NCBI RefSeq assembly: GCF_013745115.1
Contig: NZ_CP051151.1
Location: forward strand, 992,001 to 1,056,000
Length of the DNA: 64,000 nucleotides
DNA from: Hujiaoplasma nucleasis
GTDB taxonomy: Bacteria; Bacillota_I; Bacilli_A; Izemoplasmatales; Hujiaoplasmataceae
Direction: 5' to 3'
Part shown: one piece after another, positions 4,434-18,713 of the stretch
Layout of the letters: every line of letters starts with the position of its first letter
Numbering within the stretch: the stretch's first letter is position 1
Program-made: the position numbers and the translations under genes
Notes under the pieces: generated by a model
Databases searched by the model: none
Told to the model about the DNA's origin: nothing
What the model saw: the letters and a program-made list of their open reading frames with translations, nothing else

Positions 4434-5630
4434 TTAAAAGTTATCAAAATGGCTAATCGGAGATGTTTTCCCATCTCTGATTAAATAACAATTTTCTTTA
4501 CTTTCAGTATGTCTGATATATCTTTTAACAATCACATCAACAAACTTCTCATCTAACTCCATTAAGTATGAATGTCTGTCTAATTGCTCAGATGCTATCA
4601 TCGTCGAACCAGAACCACCAAATAGATCAAGAATTGATTCATATCTTCTTGATGAATTACTAATGGCCCTACCAACTAACTCTAAAGGCTTCATTGTTGG
4701 ATGTTCATCATTTCTTTTAGGTTTGTTATATTCCCAGATGGTATCTTGAGTTCTATCATCCACAAAGAAATGAGCTGCACCCTCTTTCCATCCATAAAGA
4801 ATAGGCTCATGACGCCAGTGATAATCTTGTCTACCAAGAACAAGTGCATTCTTAACCCAGATTAAACACTCAGCTAATTTGTAACCAGCATTCTTAAATG
4901 CATTTCTAAAGTTTAAACCTTCTGTGTCCGCATGGCATACATAAATTGCGCCACCAAGTTTTGTATGTTCAAACATATTATTAAAAGCAGCCGACAAAAA
5001 AAGATAGAAGCTATCATCTTCCATCTTATCGTTCTTAATTTTACCTGCAGTTCCTTCATAATCAACATTATATGGTGGATCTGTAAATACCATATCAACT
5101 AATTGGCCATCCAATAACTTAGCCACATCATCCCCGTTAGTTGAATCACCACACATAATTCTATGATTACCTAATTGATAAATATCTCCTGGTTTAGAAA
5201 AAGGCTCTTCTGGTATTTCACCTTCAATATCAAAGTCATCATCAGATGCATTGTCAGGTAGAAGGCTTTCTAGTTCTTCAAAACCAAACTGTAACATGTC
5301 CATATCAATGTTTGCTAATTCATCTTCCAATTTAGATAAGTCCCAAGTGGCAAACTCTGCTGTCTTATTATCCGCTAAGCGAAAGGCTTTGATTTGTGCC
5401 TCATTTAAATCATCTGCGATAATACAGGGCACCTCTTCTAAGCCAAGCGACACAGAGGCTTTTAGACGCGTGTGACCGGCTATAATGACATCGTCACTTG
5501 TAATCACAATCGGCACTTTAAACCCAAACTCTCTTATAGAATTAGCAACCGCTTCTATAGCTTCTTCATTATTTCTAGGATTATTATCATATTCAATTAG
5601 ACTCTTTATCTTTTTCATGATGACTTGCAT
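4434..5630 (-). CDS. ParB-like N-terminal domain fused to a DNA methyltransferase
   Basis: Residues 1-100 form a ParB/Srx-type nuclease-like domain (YDNNPRNNEEAIEAVANSI, FGFKVPIVI, AGHTRLKAS, EVPCI). The C-terminal part is a SAM-dependent DNA methyltransferase with DPPYNVDYEG at about residue 184 and FGGSGST at about 337. That order, with the target-recognition region between, is class beta; DPPY points to N6-adenine or N4-cytosine as target. Such fusions are common beside phage terminase genes and are thought to methylate phage DNA. The start overlaps the terminase-like gene by 38 nt; an ATG at 5618 is possible. No partner nuclease is adjacent, so it is probably an orphan methylase. Confidence 0.88.
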   Translation of the reverse strand: MQVIMKKIKSLIEYDNNPRNNEEAIEAVANSIREFGFKVPIVITSDDVIIAGHTRLKASVSLGLEEVPCIIADDLNEAQIKAFRLADNKTAEFATWDLSKLEDELANIDMDMLQFGFEELESLLPDNASDDDFDIEGEIPEEPFSKPGDIYQLGNHRIMCGDSTNGDDVAKLLDGQLVDMVFTDPPYNVDYEGTAGKIKNDKMEDDSFYLFLSAAFNNMFEHTKLGGAIYVCHADTEGLNFRNAFKNAGYKLAECLIWVKNALVLGRQDYHWRHEPILYGWKEGAAHFFVDDRTQDTIWEYNKPKRNDEHPTMKPLELVGRAISNSSRRYESILDLFGGSGSTMIASEQLDRHSYLMELDEKFVDVIVKRYIRHTESKENCYLIRDGKTSPISHFDNF

Positions 5631-6093
5631 TTGACCACTTTTCCTCTTCTCGATTTCTTAAACGCTCATACATAGCATCTATTTCTTCCTTTTTATCATT
5701 AAAGACTCTACCAAACTTAATGATCAACAAATACCTAATGGCATTCATATCTGGTTGAGCTTTCTTTTTATACTTCACAATCTTTTTCTTTGTTCCTGCT
5801 TTAGTTTCTTCAATGGTTGTTTGAGACTCTTCATATTCATAACCGGTTGCTTTTTTAAGCATTGAATCAATTAATGTATATTTGAGTTCATCGTTACCAA
5901 AAACAAAGGCTTGATTTAACTTAGGATACTTCTTCTTAAGTTTAATCAAAGTTTTTTCTGAAACACCTAATACTTTAGATATTTCTTTTTGTGTAATGTT
6001 TTTAGAAACTAAATCTTTTATATCGGTTAACTTTCTATTTAATACCCCATCACGTTTCCATCTCTCGTAGTAATCGAGCACTTTTCCTTTCAC
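5593..6093 (-). CDS. Phage terminase small-subunit-like HTH protein
   Basis: The 166-aa product has an N-terminal helix-turn-helix (ITQKEISKVLGVSEKTLIKLKKKYP, about residues 34-56). The central part, KATGYEYEESQTTIEETKAGTKKK followed by KKAQPDMNAIRYLL, is typical of phage small-terminase or related DNA-binding proteins, in which a TGY.YEE segment precedes a PD..AI motif. Small terminases recognise the packaging site. The start is GTG at 6093 with GGAG about 9 nt upstream. It begins the late-like block but no large terminase gene follows in the window, so the role in this element is uncertain. Confidence 0.65.
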   Translation of the reverse strand: MKGKVLDYYERWKRDGVLNRKLTDIKDLVSKNITQKEISKVLGVSEKTLIKLKKKYPKLNQAFVFGNDELKYTLIDSMLKKATGYEYEESQTTIEETKAGTKKKIVKYKKKAQPDMNAIRYLLIIKFGRVFNDKKEEIDAMYERLRNREEEKWSNASHHEKDKESN

Positions 6094-6405
6094 TTAAATC
6101 ACTCCAACTGTACAGTAAAAATGTTCAAAACTGTAATCATTTACCAGTTAAATACTACAAATCTTTCTGCAAAAGAAAAAGGAACTCATATGACTGAATT
6201 CCATTTCTTCTAGGCCACTTAGCCAGTACTCCACGATATCTATACTCTATCAAATAAGTCAAATTTTGTCCATACGCTAAAAGCGCTTGTTAGTAATTTA
6301 CCTGCTTAAAACTGTATAGCCATTTATTAGTCTTTATCTATTCTAAGTGTTTATTCATTGTTCTTGGTAGCATTCACATGTATTATTCCTATTTAGATTA
6401 ATATA
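6094..6405. other. 312-nt region without a recognisable gene
   Basis: This gap separates the HNH restriction gene from the terminase-like gene. On the minus strand it contains a 44-codon stop-to-stop frame (about 6152-6286) reading QALLAYGQNLTYLIEY and onward to QKDL, with no convincing start, which may be a decayed gene. At 6370-6393 lies a 24-nt motif repeated at 12022-12045. I see no RNA gene or clear terminator. Confidence 0.5.
6370..6393. repeat. 24-nt repeated motif, copy 1
   Basis: This 24-nt stretch (GCATTCACATG then TATTATTCCTATT) matches 12022-12045 at 22 of 24 positions. Each copy lies in the non-coding gap in front of a block of minus-strand phage genes, here the terminase-like/ParB-methylase block, suggesting a shared regulator site. 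Confidence 0.6.
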
Positions 6406-7917
6406 TTATAACGGTTTAGATTCATATTGTTCTACTAAAGTACTCAATCTTTGCATGTCAAAACTAGAAATTATTTTTTTATCTTTCAAAATACGAACAT
6501 GTTTTTTAGTAAGGCAATGATATGTTGTAATCATATTTTCAAACAATGCAACACTTAGACTGCCATTAGAAATAAGGTGTCTATACAAATCTTCTTTTTC
6601 CTCGTTACATGCATTATGTAATAGTCTATGTTTTTCTGGACCCAAAATAAGTAAATTATCGGTAATATCAGGTCCATCCTCACCATTAAACTCTATTATG
6701 TGATGTGCTTCAACATAATTTAACCCCTCGGGAGTTTGGAAGGTTGGTAGGCCAGTAGCCTCACATGTATAGTTCTTTTGTATTTTCGCAATTTCTTTAA
6801 TTAACCTACTTCGCACTCTTTTGTTTTTCTTAACTATCGGATATTTAATCGACCTAATATTTAGTTTTACTACTAACTCAGAATCAGATTCAAGTGCGTG
6901 TTTTAGCAAAATATTTCGATTTTTCAATACAACAGATAATAATTGATTGTGTGTTTTATGTCCCTCATCAATCTTCACTAGTAACTCATCTAGAACTGTA
7001 AGTTCAATTGGAACATTATTACTGATTAAGTTTCTAGAATACTCTGTTAAAGATATAGTATTATAGATTTCATTAATAGTAATCAAACCGAAGGTTTCCA
7101 TTAATAGTAAAAAAGAGTTGAACTTAAAATAAGGTTGTTGTGAGGAAACATAAGTAAACCTTCCAGATTCATCAAACCATCCAAGTTCTTCAAAAAAGTA
7201 TTTAATCTGATCACTCTGGTTAGACGGAAGCATACTACCGATTTCAAAGGCGTGTTGTAATACAACTTGTTGCTTTTGAACAGAATCTACCCTTCCAAGC
7301 AATACGGACAGTTCAAATTTCGTAACATCTCTACCAATTTTACTCATATATTGTAATATAGATATTGTGGGTTTATAATCTGCATCATCATCTATTTCAA
7401 GTCTTTGTTCAGCATTAATAAACTCATTTTCCTTAATAGACATTTCAATAAGGTTACTTCTATAAATATCAAATAAAACTGTTTCATCCGAATATAAAAA
7501 CTCATTACACTTATCAAAATCCAGTACTTTTTTTTGTCTAGAAATACTTTTTATGATATTAAAGAAAAGCAACCAACCCATCCAATGTCTAAACATCCGA
7601 CCTTGGGTTCTATAAAGATTATCAATATCTATATCAGTTCTAAAGTAACGTTTTTCAAAATCTGTAGAACGTTCGTTAGGATAGTTTCCTAGTTTAATTT
7701 CCTCAATTATCTCTGCTAATAACTTTTTATAATTAAACTCATGTAGTTTTTCTTTATCAACTAAACTAATATATGATATTAGTGTTTTAATAGATGTTAG
7801 CAGATCGGGGATGTTTGAAAAATCTGGCCTTGGCATATTGATAACGTCATTGTGGAACCTATTAAATCCATCAACAGAATCAATATAATTCCTATATCTT
7901 TCTCTTAAACCGCCCAT
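6406..7917 (-). CDS. HNH restriction endonuclease
   Basis: The 503-aa protein has an unrecognised N-terminal two thirds and a C-terminal HNH domain: YTCEATGLPTFQTPEG, VEAHHIIEFNG with the His pair, ITDNLLILGPEKHRLLHN with the Asn and final His. A preceding basic stretch (KKNKRVRSRLIKEIAKI) fits DNA contact. It is the third gene of an operon, 3 nt after a DNA methyltransferase, which in turn is 4 nt after another. HNH nucleases with a large specificity region next to two methyltransferases are typical of type II systems recognising asymmetric sites. Restriction activity is inferred from this context. It may alternatively be a solitary modification-linked nuclease. Confidence 0.8.
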   Translation of the reverse strand: MGGLRERYRNYIDSVDGFNRFHNDVINMPRPDFSNIPDLLTSIKTLISYISLVDKEKLHEFNYKKLLAEIIEEIKLGNYPNERSTDFEKRYFRTDIDIDNLYRTQGRMFRHWMGWLLFFNIIKSISRQKKVLDFDKCNEFLYSDETVLFDIYRSNLIEMSIKENEFINAEQRLEIDDDADYKPTISILQYMSKIGRDVTKFELSVLLGRVDSVQKQQVVLQHAFEIGSMLPSNQSDQIKYFFEELGWFDESGRFTYVSSQQPYFKFNSFLLLMETFGLITINEIYNTISLTEYSRNLISNNVPIELTVLDELLVKIDEGHKTHNQLLSVVLKNRNILLKHALESDSELVVKLNIRSIKYPIVKKNKRVRSRLIKEIAKIQKNYTCEATGLPTFQTPEGLNYVEAHHIIEFNGEDGPDITDNLLILGPEKHRLLHNACNEEKEDLYRHLISNGSLSVALFENMITTYHCLTKKHVRILKDKKIISSFDMQRLSTLVEQYESKPL

Positions 7918-7920
7918 AAT

Positions 7921-8748
7921 CTACTCCTTCCTAAAATTTATAATATTTTGATGCATGTGATTTATCTTAAATGCATATGGGTATCCAAATGGGAATAAAG
8001 GCTTATGATCCTGTAATAAGGCAATTGTTCCTACAAAAGTGTATCCTATTTCTTGCATAGCTCTAACAACATCACCTTGTACAAATACCTCTTTTTTATC
8101 TACAGTAAAATCACTAATGATTATGCTACAATATGCTCCGGTTTTTAATTTTTTAAAAGCCTTTTCCATGATTTTCTTAAACAGTTCAATAAAATCCTCA
8201 TAATATTCTTGGTTTCCTAAATCATTGTCCTTTTCCGAATAATACTCTACACCTTGTCTTGAACCGTTACGATATCCTCTAGAAGACCTATCATCTCTTA
8301 ATCCCTTTGATTTGTTTTGTAAAATATTGTGATAGGGTGGAGAAGTTATAAGATAGTCAAACTCATCAACTTCATCAATCTTGATCAACGAATCTCCAAC
8401 CATATAAACATAGTCATCGTTTTCTATCATCTCTAAATCATCAAATCTGCTTTGTGCTAATGTTTTGTACTCCGGGTTCAAGTCTATACCAATTGATTTT
8501 CTATTTGATAAAAAGGATGCAATTGCTGTTGTTCCTGATCCCATAAACGGATCAAAAACTACCATCTCTTTTTTAGTAAACATCTCGATAAATTTTTGCA
8601 CATCTTTTACTAAGAATGGTGCAGGATGATCATATGCAGGTTTATCTAGTTTTGATTTTTCAGAAAAAACAAAACTTTTGGTTCTTAATAACCAATCTTT
8701 CCCAGTTAAGTTGTTTAATTTGTTTCTTGGATCATATCTACCACCCAT
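7921..8748 (-). CDS. DNA methyltransferase (N4-cytosine/N6-adenine type)
   Basis: The 275-aa enzyme has HPAPF at about residue 41, the SAM-binding DPFMGSGTT at 66-74 and the catalytic TSPPY at 135-139. TSPPY is the form common in N4-cytosine methyltransferases, though some N6-adenine enzymes share it. The SAM motif precedes the catalytic motif. The ATG has AAGGAGTG directly upstream. It lies between the larger methyltransferase and the HNH nuclease in a tight operon and probably methylates one strand of the recognition site. Confidence 0.9.
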   Translation of the reverse strand: MGGRYDPRNKLNNLTGKDWLLRTKSFVFSEKSKLDKPAYDHPAPFLVKDVQKFIEMFTKKEMVVFDPFMGSGTTAIASFLSNRKSIGIDLNPEYKTLAQSRFDDLEMIENDDYVYMVGDSLIKIDEVDEFDYLITSPPYHNILQNKSKGLRDDRSSRGYRNGSRQGVEYYSEKDNDLGNQEYYEDFIELFKKIMEKAFKKLKTGAYCSIIISDFTVDKKEVFVQGDVVRAMQEIGYTFVGTIALLQDHKPLFPFGYPYAFKINHMHQNIINFRKE

Positions 8749-8752
8749 GTTA

Positions 8753-10594
8753 TCACTCCTTGATCTTGTTGTTTATTAATTTTTTTAGAAAAACTACATC
8801 GGGTGTCATACCATTGGGAAATTTCATAAACACTTTTTTGTATATATAATTTTTCTTAATTTTCTCATTTTCTTTTATAAGTTTATTAACAAATATTTTT
8901 ACTCTATTACTCAAAGTCTTGCTATTATTTGAATCAAAATCCATACCAGCTAGCCACCATTTACCATCAATTAATATAAATTTACTTCCTAAATAATGAT
9001 CGAGCACTGTTTTAATCTTTGCATCAAAATTATTTAAATTATAATGTTTCTCAGAAAACACAACCAGTAAAGCATTAAATAATATTTGAAAATGTGTTGG
9101 TTCAAACCTCTTTTTTATAAGTTCTTCAGTTGTATTGACTATTATTTCTTCTAAATCCTTCTTATCCATTTTTGTTGAAGTTTGTGTTTCGGATTTTACA
9201 CACCTAATATAAAAATCGGAGCTTGAAGTTCCGTAAGGATCCTTCACATTAGATTCACCACTTCTTTTATTCTGCTGATGAATTACTTTTTCAATTTCAA
9301 ATCCACTATTTACAATACTTCTCAAAAACGCATTCCAAATTTGCAGATTTTTATTATGAAAAGTGAACACTAATTTCCCATTATCTTTTAGTACAGTTCT
9401 TAAATTTGTCAATCCTCTAGTAAGATCTTGTTCAAATCTGTTGACATCGTTATCATTCTTTACAGTAATTTCTTTCTCGAACTCCGCCTTATATTTTGAG
9501 TCAAATTTCTCTAACCAAACCAGCCAAATATAACTTAAATCTAAATATTTCACCAACCCTCCATACGGTGGATCAGTTAGTATAAAGTCAACTGATTTTG
9601 CAGGTAGAATATCTGCTAAAGTGTTTATATCTTGAATTCCATATACTATATCAGCATCATCAAAGGAAAATACATCATTTCTTGATAAAAATTTGCTTTT
9701 TGGTATTTTCCCAATATATTTCTGTACACTACTTAGTGAGCTAGAAACAGATTGTTTACCTTTGCAACTACTTTCAAACAAAAGTAGAGGATTCATCTCC
9801 ATTTGCTTTTTAGGAAGCATGTATGCAGATCTTCCCCAACTAGTTGAAAATGGTCTGTTTGATGCTTTTGACCTGGGAATACACATTTTTGATGCTAAAT
9901 GAACTGTTTGAATAAATCCGAACAATAAATGTTTTTGGACGGATTTATCATTCACTTTAAGTATTAGTTCATATATTAACGAAAGAACATATATGTTTCT
10001 TTTTGTCCATAATGAACTTACCTTATTCTCAGTTAATTTTCTAAATGAGTTTGAAATTTCAATATGCTTTGGGAACTCTATTTTTTTTATCCAGTCACTT
10101 ATTTTCTGTTCAAAATCGAAATCAATATAATCCAAATCTTCTGGTAAACCCAATTTTCTTGACTTATGATTCTTCCCAAAATATCCAATTTCGTAAATTT
10201 TCCCATTATTCCATTTAACATGTTGAATGATATACTCATTTCTATCTGAATTATAGTTGTATAATTTTTGATAATTTATATTTGCTGAAACTTTTTGAAT
10301 AATATTTTCAAGAGCAAGTTCAAAACTTTTTTTCTTGAATGGAGTTGTAAATACGTCAATTAAAAAAGAGGTTAGTGGGTTTATGTCAAATGCAACTGCC
10401 CTCTTACCTGCTTTTACAGCTTCTAATGCACTCATAGCACTTCCTGAAAACGGGTCCAAGTAAATACCCTCTACACCAGTATAATTCTTGATGTACTCGT
10501 GCCATATGTTGTGAGGTTTTTTTCCCCAATATTTCATTGCAGTATATAATGGCGGTCTCGTATCTTCTACCAAGGCATAGTTAATGTTCTTCAT
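8753..10594 (-). CDS. Large DNA methyltransferase of the restriction-modification operon
   Basis: The 613-aa enzyme carries a SAM-binding DPFSGSAMSALEA at about residue 47 and a catalytic LTDPPYGG at about residue 341. The roughly 290 residues between would hold target recognition, an alpha-like order with a long insert. The N-terminal YTAMKYWGKKPHNIWHEYI is typical of this large methylase group. DPPY suggests adenine-N6 methylation, not proven. About 170 residues follow the methylase core and could be a further specificity region. It is the first gene of the operon, downstream of a near-consensus promoter, so methylation would be expressed before restriction. Confidence 0.87.
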   Translation of the reverse strand: MKNINYALVEDTRPPLYTAMKYWGKKPHNIWHEYIKNYTGVEGIYLDPFSGSAMSALEAVKAGKRAVAFDINPLTSFLIDVFTTPFKKKSFELALENIIQKVSANINYQKLYNYNSDRNEYIIQHVKWNNGKIYEIGYFGKNHKSRKLGLPEDLDYIDFDFEQKISDWIKKIEFPKHIEISNSFRKLTENKVSSLWTKRNIYVLSLIYELILKVNDKSVQKHLLFGFIQTVHLASKMCIPRSKASNRPFSTSWGRSAYMLPKKQMEMNPLLLFESSCKGKQSVSSSLSSVQKYIGKIPKSKFLSRNDVFSFDDADIVYGIQDINTLADILPAKSVDFILTDPPYGGLVKYLDLSYIWLVWLEKFDSKYKAEFEKEITVKNDNDVNRFEQDLTRGLTNLRTVLKDNGKLVFTFHNKNLQIWNAFLRSIVNSGFEIEKVIHQQNKRSGESNVKDPYGTSSSDFYIRCVKSETQTSTKMDKKDLEEIIVNTTEELIKKRFEPTHFQILFNALLVVFSEKHYNLNNFDAKIKTVLDHYLGSKFILIDGKWWLAGMDFDSNNSKTLSNRVKIFVNKLIKENEKIKKNYIYKKVFMKFPNGMTPDVVFLKKLINNKIKE

Positions 10595-10633
10595 ATTATC
10601 TCATCCTATTTTCTGTCTCAATCATCAAGATTT

Positions 10634-10662
10634 ATTATAGCATAATCTAGGGTGACTATCAA
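10634..10662 (-). promoter_or_regulatory. Strong promoter of the restriction-modification operon
   Basis: On the minus strand TTGATA, a 17-nt spacer and TATAAT with an upstream TG (extended -10) lie about 40 nt before the ATG of the first methyltransferase. This gives the operon expression independent of the phage genes upstream. Confidence 0.75.
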
Positions 10663-10683
10663 TTGAATGATTATTAAATCAAA

Positions 10684-11094
10684 CTACTTAGTGTAATCCT
10701 CTATTTGATTTATTAATTGATAAAAACGACTTCTAGAAAGTTTCATCTGTTTTGCTATTTCTTTCCTAGACATGTTGGTCTCAATCAAAGATGTAAGAAT
10801 GTGATATTGTTTGTTATTTAAAGAGTTTTTGAAATTATTGTATCTTTCTATTATAGATTTGCATCTCTCTATGTTTTTATTCACTTTTTCTATCTTATCA
10901 ATAACATATAACAAATTATTCTCTACATTGTTCTTGCTAGTTCCTGAACCTACATGGTCATATGTAACTGCATTATACCCAACTAGTCTCGATTCATAAA
11001 ACTTGAGTTTTTCTTCTAACTCTTCTTTATGTCTGTAGGCTTTTTTTATATCATCGATCCACTTGTAAAAATCCGTTTTTGAACCATTCTTCAA
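10684..11094 (-). CDS. Phage HTH regulator (DUF1492/RinA-like)
   Basis: The 136-aa protein has a long N-terminal coiled coil (KKAYRHKEELEEKLKFYESR; IDKIEKVNKNIERCKSIIERY) and a C-terminal sigma-4-like helix-turn-helix (NMSRKEIAKQMKLSRSRFYQLINQIE). That layout fits phage late-gene regulators of the DUF1492/RinA/ArpU kind; exact family membership is inferred. The start is TTG at 11094, with AAAGGAGG eight nt upstream, and it overlaps the replication gene by 44 nt. In phages these genes lie between replication and packaging modules, as here, apart from the inserted restriction operon. Confidence 0.65.
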   Translation of the reverse strand: MKNGSKTDFYKWIDDIKKAYRHKEELEEKLKFYESRLVGYNAVTYDHVGSGTSKNNVENNLLYVIDKIEKVNKNIERCKSIIERYNNFKNSLNNKQYHILTSLIETNMSRKEIAKQMKLSRSRFYQLINQIEDYTK

Positions 11095-11944
11095 ACTTGA
11101 TGCCTCCTTTATCTTCTAGCTTCTTAAACCGTTCTAAATTCGTTATAAGCGATACTTTCATAAAACTATATTTATCATCAATAGGTGGTGTTGGATTCTT
11201 AGCATATGAAATTAAATAGTTCACACCACTTAATACATTCTCATATCCATAATCCAAGATTGCTGTTTCAAATAAGATATTATATTTCATGATATTCGCA
11301 TCTACTTCTGAAATGTATTTACGATCAATAATTAATTGAGTTAAAAAGTGCATTTTGGGGTACCCATAAATGCTTTTATCTTTTTTTATCAATATATCCC
11401 TTTTACTTTTTCTTTTTCTTTGTGTATTATTGTCAACATTTACCGAGTTTTTGCTTACATTAACCGAGTTATTGTTAACATTAACTTGTTTCTTTTGTTT
11501 TTTATCCTTCTTTTTATCCATACTTAAAAGGATTCCAAGCTTCTCCATGGTTTTGGAATCTAGTAACCAATATTTACTGATGTCTACTTCTTTACGTCTC
11601 TTGGCTGCGAATATGAACTGCTCCTGGATTTTTGGTGATGTGATCACACCCTCTTCAAATAAGTCTTTATCAAACAACCCAAGATTGACACATGCTCTTA
11701 CAGCTAGTTCAATTTCCGTTCGTTCAACCCACTTTGGTCCTAACACTTTATGAAGTTTGTTGATCAGTTTTTTCTCTGACAACTCCAGGCAATATCCATT
11801 CGCATAAATGAGCATCAAAATTCTAATATAAATATGTTGCGCCATTGGTCCGTAATCGTAATGTAGATCATCAAGCTTTTCATCCTCAAAAGCACGGACT
11901 GCCAGAGGGAAGTAATCCAACCCTCTTTTTATTGGTCTAGCCAT
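11051..11944 (-). CDS. DUF4373 (Lin1244/Lin1753-like) replication-module protein
   Basis: The N-terminal 115 residues (MARPIKRGLDYFPLAVRAF, LHYDYGPMAQHIYIRILMLIYANGYCLE, RACVNLGLFDKDLFEEGVITS) match the DUF4373 winged-helix region found in phage DnaD-like replication proteins. A basic, Asn/Val-rich linker follows, containing three imperfect 7-residue repeats (VNVNNNS, VNVSKNS, VNVDNNT). The C-terminal part ending FKNGFLQVDR is helical. It probably opens or marks the element's replication origin. The ATG has GAGGT upstream. The linker repeats reflect three 21-bp DNA repeats that could be initiator sites. Confidence 0.75.
   Translation of the reverse strand: MARPIKRGLDYFPLAVRAFEDEKLDDLHYDYGPMAQHIYIRILMLIYANGYCLELSEKKLINKLHKVLGPKWVERTEIELAVRACVNLGLFDKDLFEEGVITSPKIQEQFIFAAKRRKEVDISKYWLLDSKTMEKLGILLSMDKKKDKKQKKQVNVNNNSVNVSKNSVNVDNNTQRKRKSKRDILIKKDKSIYGYPKMHFLTQLIIDRKYISEVDANIMKYNILFETAILDYGYENVLSGVNYLISYAKNPTPPIDDKYSFMKVSLITNLERFKKLEDKGGIKFEEWFKNGFLQVDR
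11423..11485. repeat. Three 21-bp direct repeats inside the replication gene
   Basis: Three adjoining 21-bp units at 11423-11443, 11444-11464 and 11465-11485. The last two read CGAGTT, then TTG, then ACATTAAC; the first is more diverged. Phage initiator genes often carry origin iterons in their own coding sequence, so this is a candidate replication origin. Confidence 0.5.
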
Positions 11945-11973
11945 GCTTTTACCTCTTCATTTTGAGTATAGCA

Positions 11974-12045
11974 AATAATGCTTGTATAATGCTTTAGATA
12001 TCTGTTTCACTTTTCTAAGGTGCATTCACAAGCATTATTCCTATT
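11974..12045. promoter_or_regulatory. Inverted repeat and second copy of the 24-nt motif
   Basis: AATAATGCTTGT at 11974-11985 is exactly inverted as ACAAGCATTATT at 12028-12039, and similarity extends a few bases further inward. The right arm lies in the 24-nt motif (12022-12045) shared with 6370-6393. The pair sits upstream of the minus-strand replication gene, whose start is at 11944, suggesting an operator. A shorter GCATTCACAAG copy occurs at 15029. Confidence 0.55.
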
Positions 12046-12055
12046 GTATGTATTT

Positions 12056-12253
12056 TTATTTCTTTAAGATTCTTTCGTTTGAATTTCTATCAATAAATGC
12101 ATCTAGGCTTAGTTTTGATATGCGCCATTGGTTACTCATACGAAATCCTTTTAATTCATTTTTCTTTAATAATTTTAATACTGTTTGTGGTGATACTTTT
12201 AATACTTTTGCTATTTCTGGTACTGTGTAAAAATCTCTTGTTTCATCTCTCAT
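12056..12253 (-). CDS. Excisionase-like helix-turn-helix protein
   Basis: The 65-aa protein is a single MerR/excisionase-type DNA-binding domain (HTH_17): FYTVPEIAKVLKVSPQTVLKLLKKNELKGFRMSNQWRIS followed by LDAFIDR. Small proteins of this kind act as recombination directionality factors or regulators. Its start overlaps the end of the antirepressor gene by 11 nt, so the two are co-translated. Being one gene away from the tyrosine integrase, it is a reasonable candidate partner for it, though this is inference. Confidence 0.8.
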   Translation of the reverse strand: MRDETRDFYTVPEIAKVLKVSPQTVLKLLKKNELKGFRMSNQWRISKLSLDAFIDRNSNERILKK

Positions 12254-12980
12254 GGTTTTTTGTTTTATACTCCTTTAGTATTTTTTCTATTAATGCTATG
12301 CCTTTTTTATAAACGTATGTTCTTTGCGAACTGACAACGTTTCCTGCAACAATAACTGTAGCATCTACAACTCTAAAATATCTTTTGTCACAGAACTCTT
12401 GATAGGGTTGATTGGTTTCATCTAATATATTCATTGTTCTTAAAATTTTAAATAAGTTGGTATTCCCTATACCTGGATATTTAATGATTTTTGAAACTCT
12501 GTCTAGGTCAACACAATTTTTTGATCCAAGTAGTTCGTTGATATATCTGACTTTAGGTTTTAACATATTCATGTCTGTTTCTAGTACAGTGTTTCTTATT
12601 TTTAAATGCTTGTTTTCTTCGATGAGTTTAATTATTTTTTCACCATCTTCATATTCATCTATGCTATAGTCTAGTGAGTTTAGTAATTTTGGTAGAATGG
12701 TGGCATAAAACCAATCATTTATTTCATCAATTTCAGGTTTCTTTGATTTATAGATAAACTTACTTAAATGCTTAATTTTTACGAACAATCTTACTTTTAT
12801 TTTGCTTTTTTCTTTTATTTCTATACGCTTTAGGTCTGAATCAGGAATACCTGTCCTACTTGTTTGTGAATTGGCTATACCTAGTGTTCTAGAAATATCT
12901 ACTAGACACAAGTACGGCTTTTTATTTACAACTGCAGCTCTTATTGTTCCATATTCTGCATTTTTAAATGTTCTAATCAT
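12243..12980 (-). CDS. BRO-N / KilAC-like phage antirepressor
   Basis: The 245-aa product starts with a BRO-type N-terminal domain (MIRTFKNAEYGTIRAAVVNKKPYLCLVDISRTLGI) and ends with a KilAC-like region (RVSKIIKYPGIGNTNLFKILRTMNIL, then PYQEFCDKRYFRVVD and the closing KKGIALIEKILKEY), with a helical linker between. Such proteins antagonise phage repressors. I use the ATG at 12980; a GGAGG lies 15 nt upstream, further than usual, and the open frame extends to a GTG at 13055 inside the integrase gene. It is immediately downstream of the integrase on the minus strand. Confidence 0.8.
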   Translation of the reverse strand: MIRTFKNAEYGTIRAAVVNKKPYLCLVDISRTLGIANSQTSRTGIPDSDLKRIEIKEKSKIKVRLFVKIKHLSKFIYKSKKPEIDEINDWFYATILPKLLNSLDYSIDEYEDGEKIIKLIEENKHLKIRNTVLETDMNMLKPKVRYINELLGSKNCVDLDRVSKIIKYPGIGNTNLFKILRTMNILDETNQPYQEFCDKRYFRVVDATVIVAGNVVSSQRTYVYKKGIALIEKILKEYKTKNHER

Positions 12981-13026
12981 GACTTGAATTTTAATCCTCC
13001 GAGTAATTTTTTTGTTGTCTTTTTTG

Positions 13027-13962
13027 TTAGGTAAGCCCTTTAAGTAAGTCGTCACCTATGATTTCTTCATATTTTTCTTTGCGCCTATTTATTTTGTGTA
13101 AATAGATTTTGGTAGTGTTTGTGTTTTTGTGTCTGAGCATATGTTGAGCACTATATAAATCAGCACCCTTTTCCATTGCTAGAGTCGCCGCTGTATGACG
13201 CAGGCTGTGAGCTGTAAATTTTTTACTATCAATATTAATTCCAAGTAGATATTTTTTAACTATTTTACTGATTGATCTAGTTTTTAATCTAATTTCTTTA
13301 TATGTGCTTCCATGGTTAATAAACAAGGGTTTATGTTCATCTGAACGCATCATTAAATATGTTTCAATTAGTTTATATACTAGGGGTGAAAGTTTGTTAT
13401 AGGAGTCTTTTTCATCTCTACCTTTACCCATAACATATAGCACATGAGAATCACCAATGAAGTGAATATCTGAGACATCTGCTCTTTCTATTTCAATCGT
13501 TCTAAATCCTGTTGAAATCATTAATGCAATCATTGTAAAGTTTCTATATTCGATAATGCCTTTAGATGATTCTTTTTTAGCATATTCTAAGAGTTGTCTT
13601 GCTTGTTTTTCACTTAATGATTCACGCTTGAATGTATTTTCTATTCTTGGACCCTTTATATTGATTGCGATATTGTCTCCTTTGCCTTCAGCGTATAGCC
13701 AGGCATAAAACAATCTAACAACGACAATATATTTTTGAACAGTATTAGCACTATGGTCTTTTATCAAAGTATCACGATATTGTTTAACATCATCTCGAAT
13801 TGGTGGTTCAGTTAAATGTTCAACATATTCTACATACCTAAGCAATATCCTTCTATAGCTTTCTTTTGTAATTGGTTTAACATCGTGATACTTTATAAAT
13901 TCAAGTACCTGTTCTTTTAGTTTTTGACTATGCATTAAAGTTAAATTTATTGGCTTTATCAT
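13027..13962 (-). CDS. Tyrosine recombinase/integrase
   Basis: The 311-aa protein has the two-domain XerC/D layout: an N-terminal SAM-like core-binding domain (ITKESYRRILLRYVEYVEHL, TVQKYIVVVRLFYAWLY) and a C-terminal catalytic domain with Arg in STGFRTIEIE, HSLRHTAATLA (His-x-x-Arg), HMLRHKNTNTT and the nucleophile region TTKIYLHKI. It probably integrates or excises the element, or resolves its dimers. It overlaps the 3' end of the XRE gene; starts at 13962 (ATG), 13935 (ATG) and 13971 (TTG) are all possible and none has a strong ribosome site. Having this plus two serine recombinases in one element is notable. Confidence 0.88.
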   Translation of the reverse strand: MIKPINLTLMHSQKLKEQVLEFIKYHDVKPITKESYRRILLRYVEYVEHLTEPPIRDDVKQYRDTLIKDHSANTVQKYIVVVRLFYAWLYAEGKGDNIAINIKGPRIENTFKRESLSEKQARQLLEYAKKESSKGIIEYRNFTMIALMISTGFRTIEIERADVSDIHFIGDSHVLYVMGKGRDEKDSYNKLSPLVYKLIETYLMMRSDEHKPLFINHGSTYKEIRLKTRSISKIVKKYLLGINIDSKKFTAHSLRHTAATLAMEKGADLYSAQHMLRHKNTNTTKIYLHKINRRKEKYEEIIGDDLLKGLT

Positions 13963-15018: not shown

Positions 15019-15111
15019 CACTTTAAGCGCATTCACAAGAAAAAATATTTATGATAGACTACTCGTGGTGGTTTAGACATATTTTGCATAATTAACAGTC
15101 CTTCTTAAGAG

Positions 15112-15157: not shown

Positions 15158-15295
15158 ATGGATAACAATATAAAGTTTCAACAACAAGTTTCAATCATTA
15201 ATGAGTTAAAGAAAAGAGCATTGATTACAGATTTTGAGTGGTATCGTTGTATACAAAAGTTAATCGATCATTTTATAGAAAAAAGCAACAAATAG
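15158..15295 (+). CDS. SHOCT-like micro-protein upstream of the recombinases
   Basis: A 45-aa frame (MDNNIKFQQQVSII, then NELKKRALITDFEWYRCIQKLIDHF) is preceded by GAAAGGA at a good distance. The pattern of a short helix, LKK..LIT, an acidic-aromatic E and a second helix resembles SHOCT domains, short oligomerisation or binding modules. It lies 68 nt before the first serine recombinase and is probably co-transcribed. Too short for a firm family call; it could act as an accessory or directionality factor. Confidence 0.55.
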   Translation: MDNNIKFQQQVSIINELKKRALITDFEWYRCIQKLIDHFIEKSNK

Positions 15296-15363
15296 GGTCT
15301 TTAAGACTTGCTATTTATTGCTTTTTGAGTGATATATGGAGTAAGAAAATAAAGGAGGAAAAA

Positions 15364-17064
15364 ATGCAAAAAAAGAGAGTAATTGTGATAGAACCTACTC
15401 AAGTGATTCACGAAGATAAAAATGGCTTGCCAACTTTAAAACCAAAGTTGAAAGTATGTGCATATGCTAGAGTTTCTACTGATTCAGAAGATCAACTACA
15501 TAGTGTCGAAGCCCAAAAGAGTGTATATACTGAAAAGATCCAAGAAAACGAAGCATGGGATTTCATTGGCCTATATGCAGATGAAGGTTTATCTGGCACA
15601 AGTATTAAAAAAAGACCACAGTTTTTAAAGATGATTAAAGATGCTAAGGATGGTAAAATTGATTTAATACTAACCAAGTCCTTATCAAGGTTTGCTAGAA
15701 ACACTGTCGATACCTTAACCATTATTAGAGAGTTAAGAGAACAAAACGTCGATGTATTCTTTGAAAAAGAAAATATTTATTCATCCGATACAAAGGTTGA
15801 TTTTATGCTGACCATCTTCTCTTCTATCGCCCAAGAAGAAGCAAGGAACATTAGTGAAAATGTAAAATGGGGTTTTAGAAAAAGATTTAAAGAGGGTAAG
15901 GTACACATTAATACAAAGAGATTTCTTGGTTACGATAAGGATGATTTGGGAAAAATCATTATTAATGAAGCACAAGCTAAAACAGTGAGAATTATCTTTG
16001 ATATGTATATATCAGGTGCTTCTTTAAAAGAGATCGTTTCCTTCTTAACAGAAAACCAACTCAAGAATGGTCGAGGTGAGGTCTTTTGGGTATCAGCGAC
16101 AGTAAATGCCATTCTTACCAATGAAAAGTATTGTGGAGATGCCATTTTACAAAAGCGAGTGACTGTCGATTATTTAACGCATAAATCAGTTAAAAATGAT
16201 GGCCATGCACCCAAGTACTACATTATGAATAACCATGAACCCATTATATCAAGGACCAAGTTTGAACTTGCCCAGGAACTAAAGAAAAAGCGCTCAAGGA
16301 AGCGCAAGCAATCAAACTACGGTAATATATACCCCCTGAGTGGTATCGTTTTTTGTGGCCAGTGTGGTGCGGTTATGAACCGGAGTTATTATAATTATGG
16401 CAAAGATAATGAAAGAGTTGTTTTGACCTGCAGAAAAAATAATAAAGGCCATGTTTGTTCAAACAAACCAATAGACAATAATACATTAGAAAAGGCCATT
16501 ATTGATTCTATTAAGGCACTTAAATTATCCGATGAAAATATCATTGATGAAACCTTGGATATAGTTCAATCATGCCTAAACTCTACTCATATAGAAGATG
16601 AGATTACATCATTAAAAAAAGACATCACCAAAACTCAAAAAGACATCAAAGATATTATCAACATCAATGTCGATTCTATATCAAACAATAGTGATTTTTA
16701 TAAATCAATTTATGATGAAAAGAAAGCTGAGCTGATTGATTTGAAAGCCAAGCTAAGCAATAAGAAATCGCTACTTCTAAGCAAACACCTACATGAAGAG
16801 CGTATACAAGAAATGAAGTTATTCTTGGATGGTCACATTGGATTAAACAAGAATATATTACTTAATGCTTATAAGTTTATCATTGCTCTTAATCCATCTG
16901 AAGCACTTCTACTCATTAATGATGAAGTCATTACTAATAAGAGAATTGATGAGGACTTGGATATTTATAAAGCCATCTCACCTATTTATACAGGATATGC
17001 AAAAAGTCCTAATGGCAAACAAGAAATCCATTATAAAGTTATCGATTTAAGGAAAGCAAAATGA
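15364..17064 (+). CDS. Large serine recombinase 1
   Basis: The 566-aa protein has an N-terminal resolvase domain with the nucleophile in YARVSTDSEDQ (about Ser38), TKSLSRFARNTVDTL and SIAQEEARNISENVKWG. A recombinase domain follows (about 190-300), then a zinc ribbon (FCGQCG ... CRKNNKGHVC), a coiled coil (about 415-490) and a C-terminal tail. This is the layout of phage and transposon large serine integrases. I use the ATG at 15364, preceded by AAAGGAGG; the frame stays open upstream through the micro-gene. Its stop overlaps the next recombinase as ATGA, so the two are made together. Confidence 0.92.
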   Translation: MQKKRVIVIEPTQVIHEDKNGLPTLKPKLKVCAYARVSTDSEDQLHSVEAQKSVYTEKIQENEAWDFIGLYADEGLSGTSIKKRPQFLKMIKDAKDGKIDLILTKSLSRFARNTVDTLTIIRELREQNVDVFFEKENIYSSDTKVDFMLTIFSSIAQEEARNISENVKWGFRKRFKEGKVHINTKRFLGYDKDDLGKIIINEAQAKTVRIIFDMYISGASLKEIVSFLTENQLKNGRGEVFWVSATVNAILTNEKYCGDAILQKRVTVDYLTHKSVKNDGHAPKYYIMNNHEPIISRTKFELAQELKKKRSRKRKQSNYGNIYPLSGIVFCGQCGAVMNRSYYNYGKDNERVVLTCRKNNKGHVCSNKPIDNNTLEKAIIDSIKALKLSDENIIDETLDIVQSCLNSTHIEDEITSLKKDITKTQKDIKDIININVDSISNNSDFYKSIYDEKKAELIDLKAKLSNKKSLLLSKHLHEERIQEMKLFLDGHIGLNKNILLNAYKFIIALNPSEALLLINDEVITNKRIDEDLDIYKAISPIYTGYAKSPNGKQEIHYKVIDLRKAK

Positions 17065-18713
17065 GCGCTGTAGAAATCATTGACTTAAATCAAATTGAAA
17101 AAGAGAACGCTAAACAAAATGTCTGTGCTTATGCTAGGGTTTCAACAACTAAAGAGCTACAGGCCACTTCTCTTGCCTTACAAGTGGAAACATACACAAA
17201 GTTGATCACTGAAAAACCTGAGTGGAACTTTTCCGGAGTCTTCTATGATGTTGGTAAGTCTGGGACAGATACAAAACATAGGACTCAATTTAATCAAATG
17301 ATTGAACTGGCCAAGGCGGGTGGTATTGATTTAATCATTACCAAATCAATATCACGATTTACAAGAAACACAGTTGACTGTTTAAAGATTATTCAAGACT
17401 TAAAAAGACATAAGGTTGAGGTTTGGTTTGAAAAGGAAAACATCTCATCCTTTGATCCTAAAGTTGAATTAACCATGACCATTTATGCAAGTGTCGCTGA
17501 AGAGGAGTCAAAGATAAATAGTGAGAATACATTATGGGGTGTTAAAAAGCGTTTTGAAGATGGGGTCGTTCCCATGGTCACATCTAAAGTTTTGGGTTAC
17601 AAAAGAGACAAAGACAACAATATCATAGTTGATGATAAAGAAGCTAAGATTGTAAGAAAGATATTTAATCTTTATGCTAGAGGTTATTCATTATATTATA
17701 TAGCAGAAAAGTTAAATGAAGCGGGTCATAAAACCAAGTATAAAAACTTACCTTATAAAAAAGGTGCTGTTAGAGGGATTCTAATCAATGAGAAATACAC
17801 TGGTAATGCCTTACTACAAAAATCAAAACGAAAAAAGGTAGGTAGTAGAATCGGAGAGAAAAACCAACAAACTCATCCAAAGTATTATGTGGAAAACTCT
17901 CATCCAAAGATTATTACAAAAGCCTTATGGGATAAGGTTCACGCTATAAGAAACCAAAGAATGATGAAATACAATCATACAACTGATATTGTAAAGTTAA
18001 AAGAACAAGCCAAGCATAAATCAATTTATAGTGGTTTTGTCCAGTGCGGTGTCTGTGACAAAAACTATCATTTCAAAGTCAATAACAAAAAAGAAAAATG
18101 GGCAACAGAAACTTTAATCTGTGCATCTAATAGAGAAAAGAAAACATGCGAGAATGATGCCTTGTTTGTTAAAACATTTGAGAATCAACTTCTATCACAT
18201 ATAAATGATATGATTAAAAACAAATACGAGTTTCTAAACACGCTTCATGAAGTCCTGGTATCTCACCCTGAGATAAGAAAACTTAATATTGATAATCACA
18301 CATTAGAAGATAAGTTAGATGAGGTTAATGAACATATCAAGTCCTTAGTATCAATTGACAGTGAATTTGAGGTAAAGGTCCTTGAAGAACTAAAAGAAAG
18401 AAAAGCAAGCATTGAAACAGCTTTAACCGGAAACAGAAATAAGCTATTAACATCTCATAATGTTGAAACTAAACTCAAACAATACAAGCTACTTTTAAAA
18501 GACTACAAAAAGCCTATATCAAGCTTAAGTGATTTTCCTTTCAAAGCATTCTTTGACAAGGCAATTGTTTATAGTAGAGATAGACTTGAATTTATATTAA
18601 ACCCCTTTAATACTGATGAGGATAAAATCACATACTCATTTCCTGAATTAATGACTTATTACACAATTAGAAAAACAACTCACCAATCAATAAGTAAGGT
18701 GATTTGTATATAA
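17061..18713 (+). CDS. Large serine recombinase 2
   Basis: The 550-aa protein has the same architecture as its neighbour: YARVSTTKELQATS (nucleophile about Ser28), TKSISRFTRNTVDCL, SVAEEESKINSENTLWG, a recombinase domain, a zinc ribbon (VQCGVCDK ... CASNREKKTC), a coiled coil and a C-terminal region. The sequences differ enough that this is an old pair rather than a fresh duplication. Overlapping, co-translated recombinases suggest a heteromeric or sequentially acting integration system, as in CcrA/CcrB-type or multi-recombinase elements. It is the last gene before the tRNA cluster, placing the element's right end within about 280 nt. Confidence 0.92.
   Translation: MSAVEIIDLNQIEKENAKQNVCAYARVSTTKELQATSLALQVETYTKLITEKPEWNFSGVFYDVGKSGTDTKHRTQFNQMIELAKAGGIDLIITKSISRFTRNTVDCLKIIQDLKRHKVEVWFEKENISSFDPKVELTMTIYASVAEEESKINSENTLWGVKKRFEDGVVPMVTSKVLGYKRDKDNNIIVDDKEAKIVRKIFNLYARGYSLYYIAEKLNEAGHKTKYKNLPYKKGAVRGILINEKYTGNALLQKSKRKKVGSRIGEKNQQTHPKYYVENSHPKIITKALWDKVHAIRNQRMMKYNHTTDIVKLKEQAKHKSIYSGFVQCGVCDKNYHFKVNNKKEKWATETLICASNREKKTCENDALFVKTFENQLLSHINDMIKNKYEFLNTLHEVLVSHPEIRKLNIDNHTLEDKLDEVNEHIKSLVSIDSEFEVKVLEELKERKASIETALTGNRNKLLTSHNVETKLKQYKLLLKDYKKPISSLSDFPFKAFFDKAIVYSRDRLEFILNPFNTDEDKITYSFPELMTYYTIRKTTHQSISKVICI

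Follow-up and report, generated by a model that had tools for sequence, protein, structure and literature searches.

Why should two separate blocks of phage genes, one for replication and one for packaging, each be preceded by a copy of the same short DNA element? The question is raised by a 64,000-nt stretch of Hujiaoplasma nucleasis (NZ_CP051151.1, positions 992,001–1,056,000), which in its entirety is called the window here and whose own numbering is used throughout. To our knowledge, little is known about gene control in phages of Mycoplasmatota. From the sequence comparisons presented below, we judge it fairly probable that the two copies of the 24-nt element form a shared activator site, and that the late (packaging) operon carries a second lock. 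The element and an associated half site are located as follows:

12022–12045, minus strand: copy B of the 24-nt element, preceding the rep-ltr operon and reading AATAGGAATAATGCTTGTGAATGC on the minus strand
6370–6393, minus strand: copy A of the 24-nt element, upstream of terS, reading AATAGGAATAATACATGTGAATGC on the minus strand
11974–11985, plus strand: inverted 12-nt half site, inside the spacer of the rep promoter

Both copies lie where the original prediction had placed them and agree at 22 of 24 positions, that is, with two differences; a repeat search extended the similarity to 40 nt at 80%. As also predicted, each occupies the gap before a minus-strand block, with copy B in the 111 bp between a gene for a 65-aa helix-turn-helix (HTH) protein (ending at 12056) and the replication gene rep (starting at 11944), and copy A in the 312 bp between the last cargo gene (ending at 6406) and terS (starting at 6093). 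When up to three mismatches were allowed, the element matched the window twice, compared to no matches in 100 shuffles, and a scan of the whole 1.81-Mb genome (24-nt pattern with three free positions) returned the same two matches only, with none for the reversed control. An 18-nt core with up to two mismatches gave three extra genomic matches against two for its reversed control, and so only the full-length pair stands out. Across 34 genomes of the family, three mismatches yielded four single matches outside G000, and the reversed control two matches in G025.

The inverted half that had been reported at 11974 is an exact 12-nt match (11974–11985); with one mismatch allowed the window contains three such matches against 1.5 expected, and by eye the half site is clear in lineage 1 and merely approximate in other lineages. 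The third match of the original prediction fared less well, as the 11-mer at 15029–15039 is real (11/11, 0.04 expected) but differs from the 24-nt consensus at eight positions. It had no counterpart in the relatives scanned: in L009, L024, L030 and L041, all matches to four 11-mer variants of the core fell at rep or ter sites; the 3' flank of the repressor gene was covered in L009, L024 (236 nt only) and L041, and L030 does not include it. The 11-mer was therefore rejected as a third copy of the element.

Relatives were gathered through the rep and TerS proteins, the motif pattern and a whole-genome search. A rep copy and a ter copy were found together in 14 distinct phage contigs (the window, L009, L011/L015, L024, L025, L042/L033, L043/L031, L030, L052, L053, L098, L133, L075 and L077), those of L075 and L077 being identified by eye and the seemingly near-identical contigs L022, L041 and L140 being left out of the count. 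When held-out loci were scored with a matrix trained on eight sites from four loci (window, L009, L024 and L043), the rep site came first and the ter site second among all positions in L030 and L053, and they came second and fifth in L052; in L027 the ter site ranked fourth, and two copies within the cargo first and second.

The core of the element varies between lineages, reading GGAATAATRCWTGTGAATGC in the window, AATAATGCTTGTGATTGC with TATAATCCTTGTGATTTC in L024, AGTAATRCTTGTGAACGGTAAC in L053, GATAATRCTTGTGAACAG in L052 and GATAAT(G/C)TGTGTAT in L075, and the two copies within a phage vary together. Among 11 phages, rep and ter copies from the same phage differed on average at 5.3 of 25 positions compared to 9.8 for random pairings, none of 20000 being as low, and with one phage taken per lineage the own pairing was the unique best of 24 in 32/32 choices. 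Since these phages are related, the shuffle counts, z values and Mantel values of this study overstate independence. The resemblance between own copies nevertheless lies far beyond chance, and it is maintained between sites several kb apart with different cargo between them in the inspected loci, which makes a common trans-acting reader for both copies likely. With copies before rep and terS in 14 contigs and own copies alike, the original view of a binding site shared by the modules stands as the best reading of these sequences.

What such a site might do is suggested by the DNA downstream of it, where the next block common to copies A and B after the core, read toward the downstream genes, is CTATAC:

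11965–11970, minus strand: -10-like TATACT of the rep promoter, 69 bp past the first base of the core and 20 nt before the start codon, without a -35 box
6313–6318, minus strand: -10-like TATACA of the late promoter, 69 bp past the core, without a -35 box

Counted on the minus strand from the first A of AATAAT, the first T of this TATAC(A/T) comes exactly 69 bp later in both window copies, without a gap. The bases between core and -10-like box differ widely between the copies, and so these are not a recent duplication kept whole. Of the 26 aligned sites, 17 have nATAC at precisely this distance of 69 bp from the core. In 14 such promoters the best -35 box scored 2–4 of 6 over spacers of 15–19, like random places, and this missing -35 argues for activation. 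Self-similarity of the array in 14 related promoters peaks at a lag of 10 (z=6.4), repeats recur at multiples of 11 bp in both L052 sites, and 10-bp repeats precede the leader RNA described below in distant relatives (z=17.7; 36 regions, 29 distinct), these being 40 of the 75 loci L071–L145 and matching the L074 regulator by tblastn. Ltr-type repeats are expected about 30–110 bp upstream of the start site; in the window itself, inspection by eye picks out repeats 1 and 3 only. A promoter-like TTGAGT-17-TATAAT (10/12) on the opposite strand overlaps the rep promoter.

The late operon differs from the replication operon in what lies between copy A and its first gene:

6244–6272, minus strand: second late promoter, TGGACA, 17 bp, TG-extended TAGAGT
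6146–6239, minus strand: conserved structured leader RNA of about 95 nt, with a closing helix, a small hairpin, a terminator-like arm and a short hairpin
6171–6202, minus strand: intrinsic-terminator-like hairpin with a U tract, within the leader RNA

In the terS leader, promoter-like matches numbered two against 1.6 in shuffles, which is no excess, and the case for the second promoter thus rests on conservation: with a spacer of 17 only, the best hexamer pair fell at the same place in 16/16 leaders (some near-duplicates), with 8–10 of 12 consensus bases. The leader RNA recurs in L024 (9849–9947), in L058–L070 and in others. A covariance model built from 11 leaders located 15 places in 11 of 392 sampled genomes of the phylum, and a sequence pattern retrieved 69 leader stretches from IMG/VR, ten of which lay on contigs already in hand and were left out of the model run; the remaining 59 all matched the model, as is expected of loci found with a pattern taken from the RNA itself. 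Their placement before terS is an independent result. At 69 of 72 places (59 from IMG/VR and 13 genomic) a TerS-like open reading frame (ORF), short in a few cases, begins 21–56 nt past the leader RNA. No terS was recognised in L064, L066 or L118, the last having only 64 nt remaining.

Base pairing in the leader is supported by covariation. In alignment A10, 17/32 pairs changed on both sides (0/500 shuffles), and in a second alignment 8/32 (1/500 shuffles), both lying above every slid control; the two alignments were fitted to the covariance model, and A10 includes one probably spurious reverse-strand row (L031, 19.7 bits). An alignment made with MAFFT only gave covariation in 5/30 pairs, and its wide set in 7/13, supporting the small hairpin and the terminator arm; the closing helix was recovered among close relatives and was absent in the wide set. 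No Rfam family reached its gathering score for the leader RNA in six loci or in window positions 5000–13500, where the former gave one unrelated tmRNA match and the latter three sub-gathering matches of 22.5–24.9 bits, among them ctRNA_p42d at 6169–6208, which overlaps the leader. Among the papers listed by literature searches on structured RNA upstream of terminase, none dealt with it, and it is in the sense of these searches and the Rfam scans that we call the RNA not described. Judged by covariation beyond shuffles and slid controls, the aligned leaders qualify as a new structured RNA family. By our own criterion, 59 of 61 distinct rows have a terminator-like hairpin with U tract, all but L030 and the spurious reverse-strand row, and that of the window was also found by a terminator scan, against 0.0 in shuffles. 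A similar hairpin separates site and rep in L052 and, by eye, in L098, L140, L075 and L077; scans of the stretch ahead of rep detected none in the window, in L024 or in L075. The hairpins in the terS leader and before rep in L052 argue for antitermination.

Which protein would read the element can be approached from the genes around it, which on the minus strand run integrase, KilAC-type antirepressor, 65-aa HTH protein, copy B, rep, 136-aa ArpU/Ltr-like protein, three cargo genes, copy A and terS:

12056–12253, minus strand: excisionase-family HTH protein, 65 aa, HTH_17, TIGR01764 above cut-off; rival candidate reader
11051–11944, minus strand: replication initiation protein, 297 aa, Lin1244_N, phrog_2562
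10684–11094, minus strand: ArpU/Ltr-like regulator, 136 aa, phrog_36, gene overlapping rep; leading candidate reader
5593–6093, minus strand: terminase small subunit, phrog_309, whose gene opens the late block

The 136-aa HTH protein, already named among the candidates of the original prediction, is also the most likely reader here. It matches phrog_36 over nearly its whole length (2.1e-9, residues 1–131), as do the regulators of L071 (3.1e-18) and L074 (1.6e-23), whose genes lie directly upstream of the late promoter; in L072 and L073, the other two of four type II loci viewed, the regulator gene is further off. The ArpU-like members of L024 and L053 had no phrog_36 match at 1e-3, and the 136-aa protein reached no NCBIfam family at the curated cut-off, its sub-cut-off matches including YlxM and sigma-70. 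The C-terminal part of its model weakly resembles sigma region 4; a fold search with the ArpU-like model returned no matches at E 0.001 (best E 0.1), the weak ones including sigma region-4 domains. On the strength of the phrog_36 kinship with the L071 and L074 regulators, the published Ltr/Alt architecture and the sigma-region-4-like model, we lean modestly toward the ArpU/Ltr-like protein as the reader; the 65-aa protein, which matches TIGR01764 at 42.3 bits (cut-off 28.8), seems a less likely candidate, with other proteins making up the remainder.

Taken together, we envisage that each copy of the element is the outer and best conserved repeat of an activator-binding array, placed at a promoter with a -10 (TATACT or TATACA) and without a -35. 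One array would drive the rep-ltr operon and the other the late operon, and a single phage-encoded protein, most likely the ArpU/Ltr-like protein of the rep operon, would bind both. By autoactivation such a reader would amplify its own synthesis and so pass the phage from replication to packaging. The second lock would be one of attenuation, in which the conventional second promoter feeds into the structured leader, whose intrinsic-terminator-like hairpin just before terS must be passed. We tentatively suggest, as something that may well prove otherwise, that a phage riboregulator of a new class gates the late operon: the leader RNA, with its several helices, would contain a terminator that needs to be overridden, whether by the activator loaded at the 24-nt element, by a ligand or by TerS itself. 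One phage protein would then open both promoters, for replication and for packaging, as well as its own gene, while the RNA would make packaging wait. Phage phi29 has a packaging RNA, and by analogy the leader RNA may, in a bolder form of the proposal, itself act in packaging. If the overall reading is right, replication, packaging and the gene of the late activator itself are tied together by one short element, and defence genes have a slot between them; the leader RNA before terS, which many viral contigs share, would offer a new and testable regulator for the late genes of phages.

Several observations weigh against this reading. Own copies are unlike each other in L042 (11 differences) and L030 (10), and the rep copies of lineages 1 and 2 differ by 5, as close as own pairs. 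Nine of the 26 aligned sites lack the 69-bp nATAC, namely L030 rep (TATATA), L027 ter (TAAACT), L032 ter (ACTACA), the four sites of L052 and L053 and two cargo copies, and in further matched sets it was found at none of 14 ter sites and, among four rep sites, only in L141 (L022 contig). As these other matched sites mostly lack it, the fixed spacing is, on the aligned sequences, a property of lineages 1 and 2 plus L030/L027 and not a general one. Self-similarity at lag 8 also exceeds shuffles (z=4.2, 14 promoters). Among loci whose rep and ter regions were both covered, no rep site was found in L036 or L054 among the top six matrix hits or on reading, nor in L071, L088, L090 or L107 by a strict pattern alone, which also missed L075 and L077. 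With regard to the reader, hhalign shows no link of ArpU-like proteins to Alt, and their C-terminal HTH is variable across phages; that of the L052 protein (8376–8810) is unrecognisable in any frame, in a phage with strong repeat arrays. In 10 related phages the distance between ter sites correlates more strongly with that of the 65-aa protein (r=0.77) than with that of the ArpU-like protein (r=0.45), and after TerS is accounted for the partial r is 0.73 for the former and 0.29 for the latter; the corresponding values for Rep and TerS are r=0.67 and r=0.40, with L022 excluded from the TerS alignment for an in-frame stop. Finally, the inverted half suits a repressor or a loop as well as an activator.

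These correlations lend most weight to an alternative in which the 65-aa excisionase-like HTH_17 protein reads the element, binding head to tail like BldC or RdfS and either activating transcription or acting as an AlpA-like antiterminator that loads on RNA polymerase and overcomes the terminator ahead of terS and, in some phages, one ahead of rep. We regard this as possible but doubtful. Its ter-site correlation is the best of those compared, its gene immediately precedes rep in every locus where this region could be seen, and L052 has a terminator-like hairpin between site and rep. BldC binds direct repeats head to tail (PMC5859096), RdfS activates transcription (PMC11963761) and AlpA is an antiterminator (PMC7969949). 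On the other hand, L071, L088, L090 and L107 keep the gene beside rep and yet show no rep site by the strict pattern, with TTGTGAA-like repeats standing before the late leader instead; no terminator-like hairpin was detected by scan before rep in the window, L024 or L075; and the AlpA element (PMC7969949) lies between -10 and -35 rather than about 70 bp upstream.

That the repeat serves mainly as homology for the exchange of cargo cassettes, without a regulatory role, appears improbable: cargo between the copies does differ among inspected loci, and extra copies occur between cargo genes in L027 and L042, but a -10-like box conserved in part of the relatives and the concerted change of both copies would not be expected, and the copy before rep is left unexplained. 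Such a role can, however, be held in addition to that of a shared activator site. Still less probable, in our view, is that the copies are origin-type iterons bound by Rep, with the origin near rep and a second site near terS; one copy abuts rep and the ter-site distance correlates with Rep as well, but the window's -10-like box no more than 20 nt before the rep start suits a promoter, and further copies lie in the cargo. We attach equally little weight to an operator of the lysogeny repressor, or of a looping repressor that uses the inverted half site. The half site does lie inside the rep promoter and the 11-nt match does follow the repressor gene, but the latter has no counterpart in the relatives scanned, and the six best matrix hits of the window, like those of L024, all fall outside the repressor–cro-like interval between the divergent regulator genes. 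A repressor operator is accordingly not supported by the matrix ranking in these two loci.

The shared activator site remains the preferred reading, and its two copies bracket a slot whose contents differ among the loci scanned:

6406–10594, minus strand: cargo between the copies, encoding two DNA methyltransferases along with a protein in which an HNH-like stretch was seen by eye
L022 2512–7115, L009 8730–13191 and L008 3477–10566: cargo slot in relatives

The protein with the HNH-like stretch has a PADLOC type IV restriction match (3.4e-6). In five scanned loci (window, L008, L009, L022 and L023) the interval from the ltr-like gene to copy A is occupied by differing restriction-modification or other defence-like genes, comprising type I and type II methyltransferases, the Gabija-like pair GajA/GajB and PDC-S14. 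Extra copies of the element stand between cargo genes at 6059 and 7504 in L027 and at 9217 in L042; since the L042 copy is followed, by eye, by a terminator-like hairpin, some of these may be scars of cassette exchange. In viral contig L013 (983–2352), an integrase is followed directly by a terS match beginning at residue 30, and the replication block, the cargo and both element sites are gone. At 15238–18713 of the window, adjoining the repressor, are tandem recombinase-like ORFs of 608 and 550 aa, serine-recombinase-like by eye, with a separate tyrosine integrase beside them; ORFs of similar size are found in L009 (553–3907). The same phage module is also present on a 93-kb plasmid record from Tenericutes bacterium MO-XQ (L025, CP017949.1), which may be a phage-plasmid, and IMG/VR contig 2775506792_000001 gave identical matches at identical relative positions. 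That plasmid record, CP017949, was matched by the L024 leader; among 50,697 phage records neither this leader nor the 34-nt L052 repeat stretch had a DNA match, and tblastn with the 136-aa protein found no phage.

How does this arrangement compare with known systems? In the Q system of phage lambda, an intrinsic terminator comes immediately after the late promoter, ahead of the first gene, a layout that the window's late promoter resembles. The same order is described for AlpA (PMC7969949). Here, unlike in both, about 55–70 bp separate the conserved DNA element from the -10-like box downstream of it, and the terminator-like hairpin forms part of a conserved RNA with several helices. With the head-to-tail binders BldC and RdfS the locus shares an HTH_17/TIGR01764 protein of 65 aa and repeats phased at 10–11 bp, binding of the element by this protein being putative. 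In the Caulobacter gene transfer agent, one regulator, GafY/GafZ, serves its own operon and the late cluster from promoters with a degenerate -35, and activation and terminator bypass occur together (PMC11150451); phage and host are unrelated to ours, and antitermination is putative here. The closest parallel is with the late activators Ltr, RinA and Alt. According to PMC13123087, late promoters under Ltr/Alt control are preceded by four imperfect repeats to which the regulator binds, at -76 to -32 in TP901-1. Promoters such as phi13 P23 and that of TP901-1 share with ours what appear to be imperfect repeats upstream of a -10, and the packaging operon as target, which in the window begins with terS (phrog_309, 5593–6093). 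The differences are that here the element also precedes the operon encoding the regulator and rep; that 4.2 kb of cargo separates regulator and late promoter in the window, so that the regulator gene is not directly upstream; that only the outer repeat is strong and a structured, terminator-bearing leader RNA follows; and that no sequence link joins the ArpU-like proteins to Alt. In lacking a -35 and carrying weak 10-bp-phased repeats, the putative element promoters nonetheless resemble, by sequence and by analogy, the late promoters of the Ltr/Alt class.

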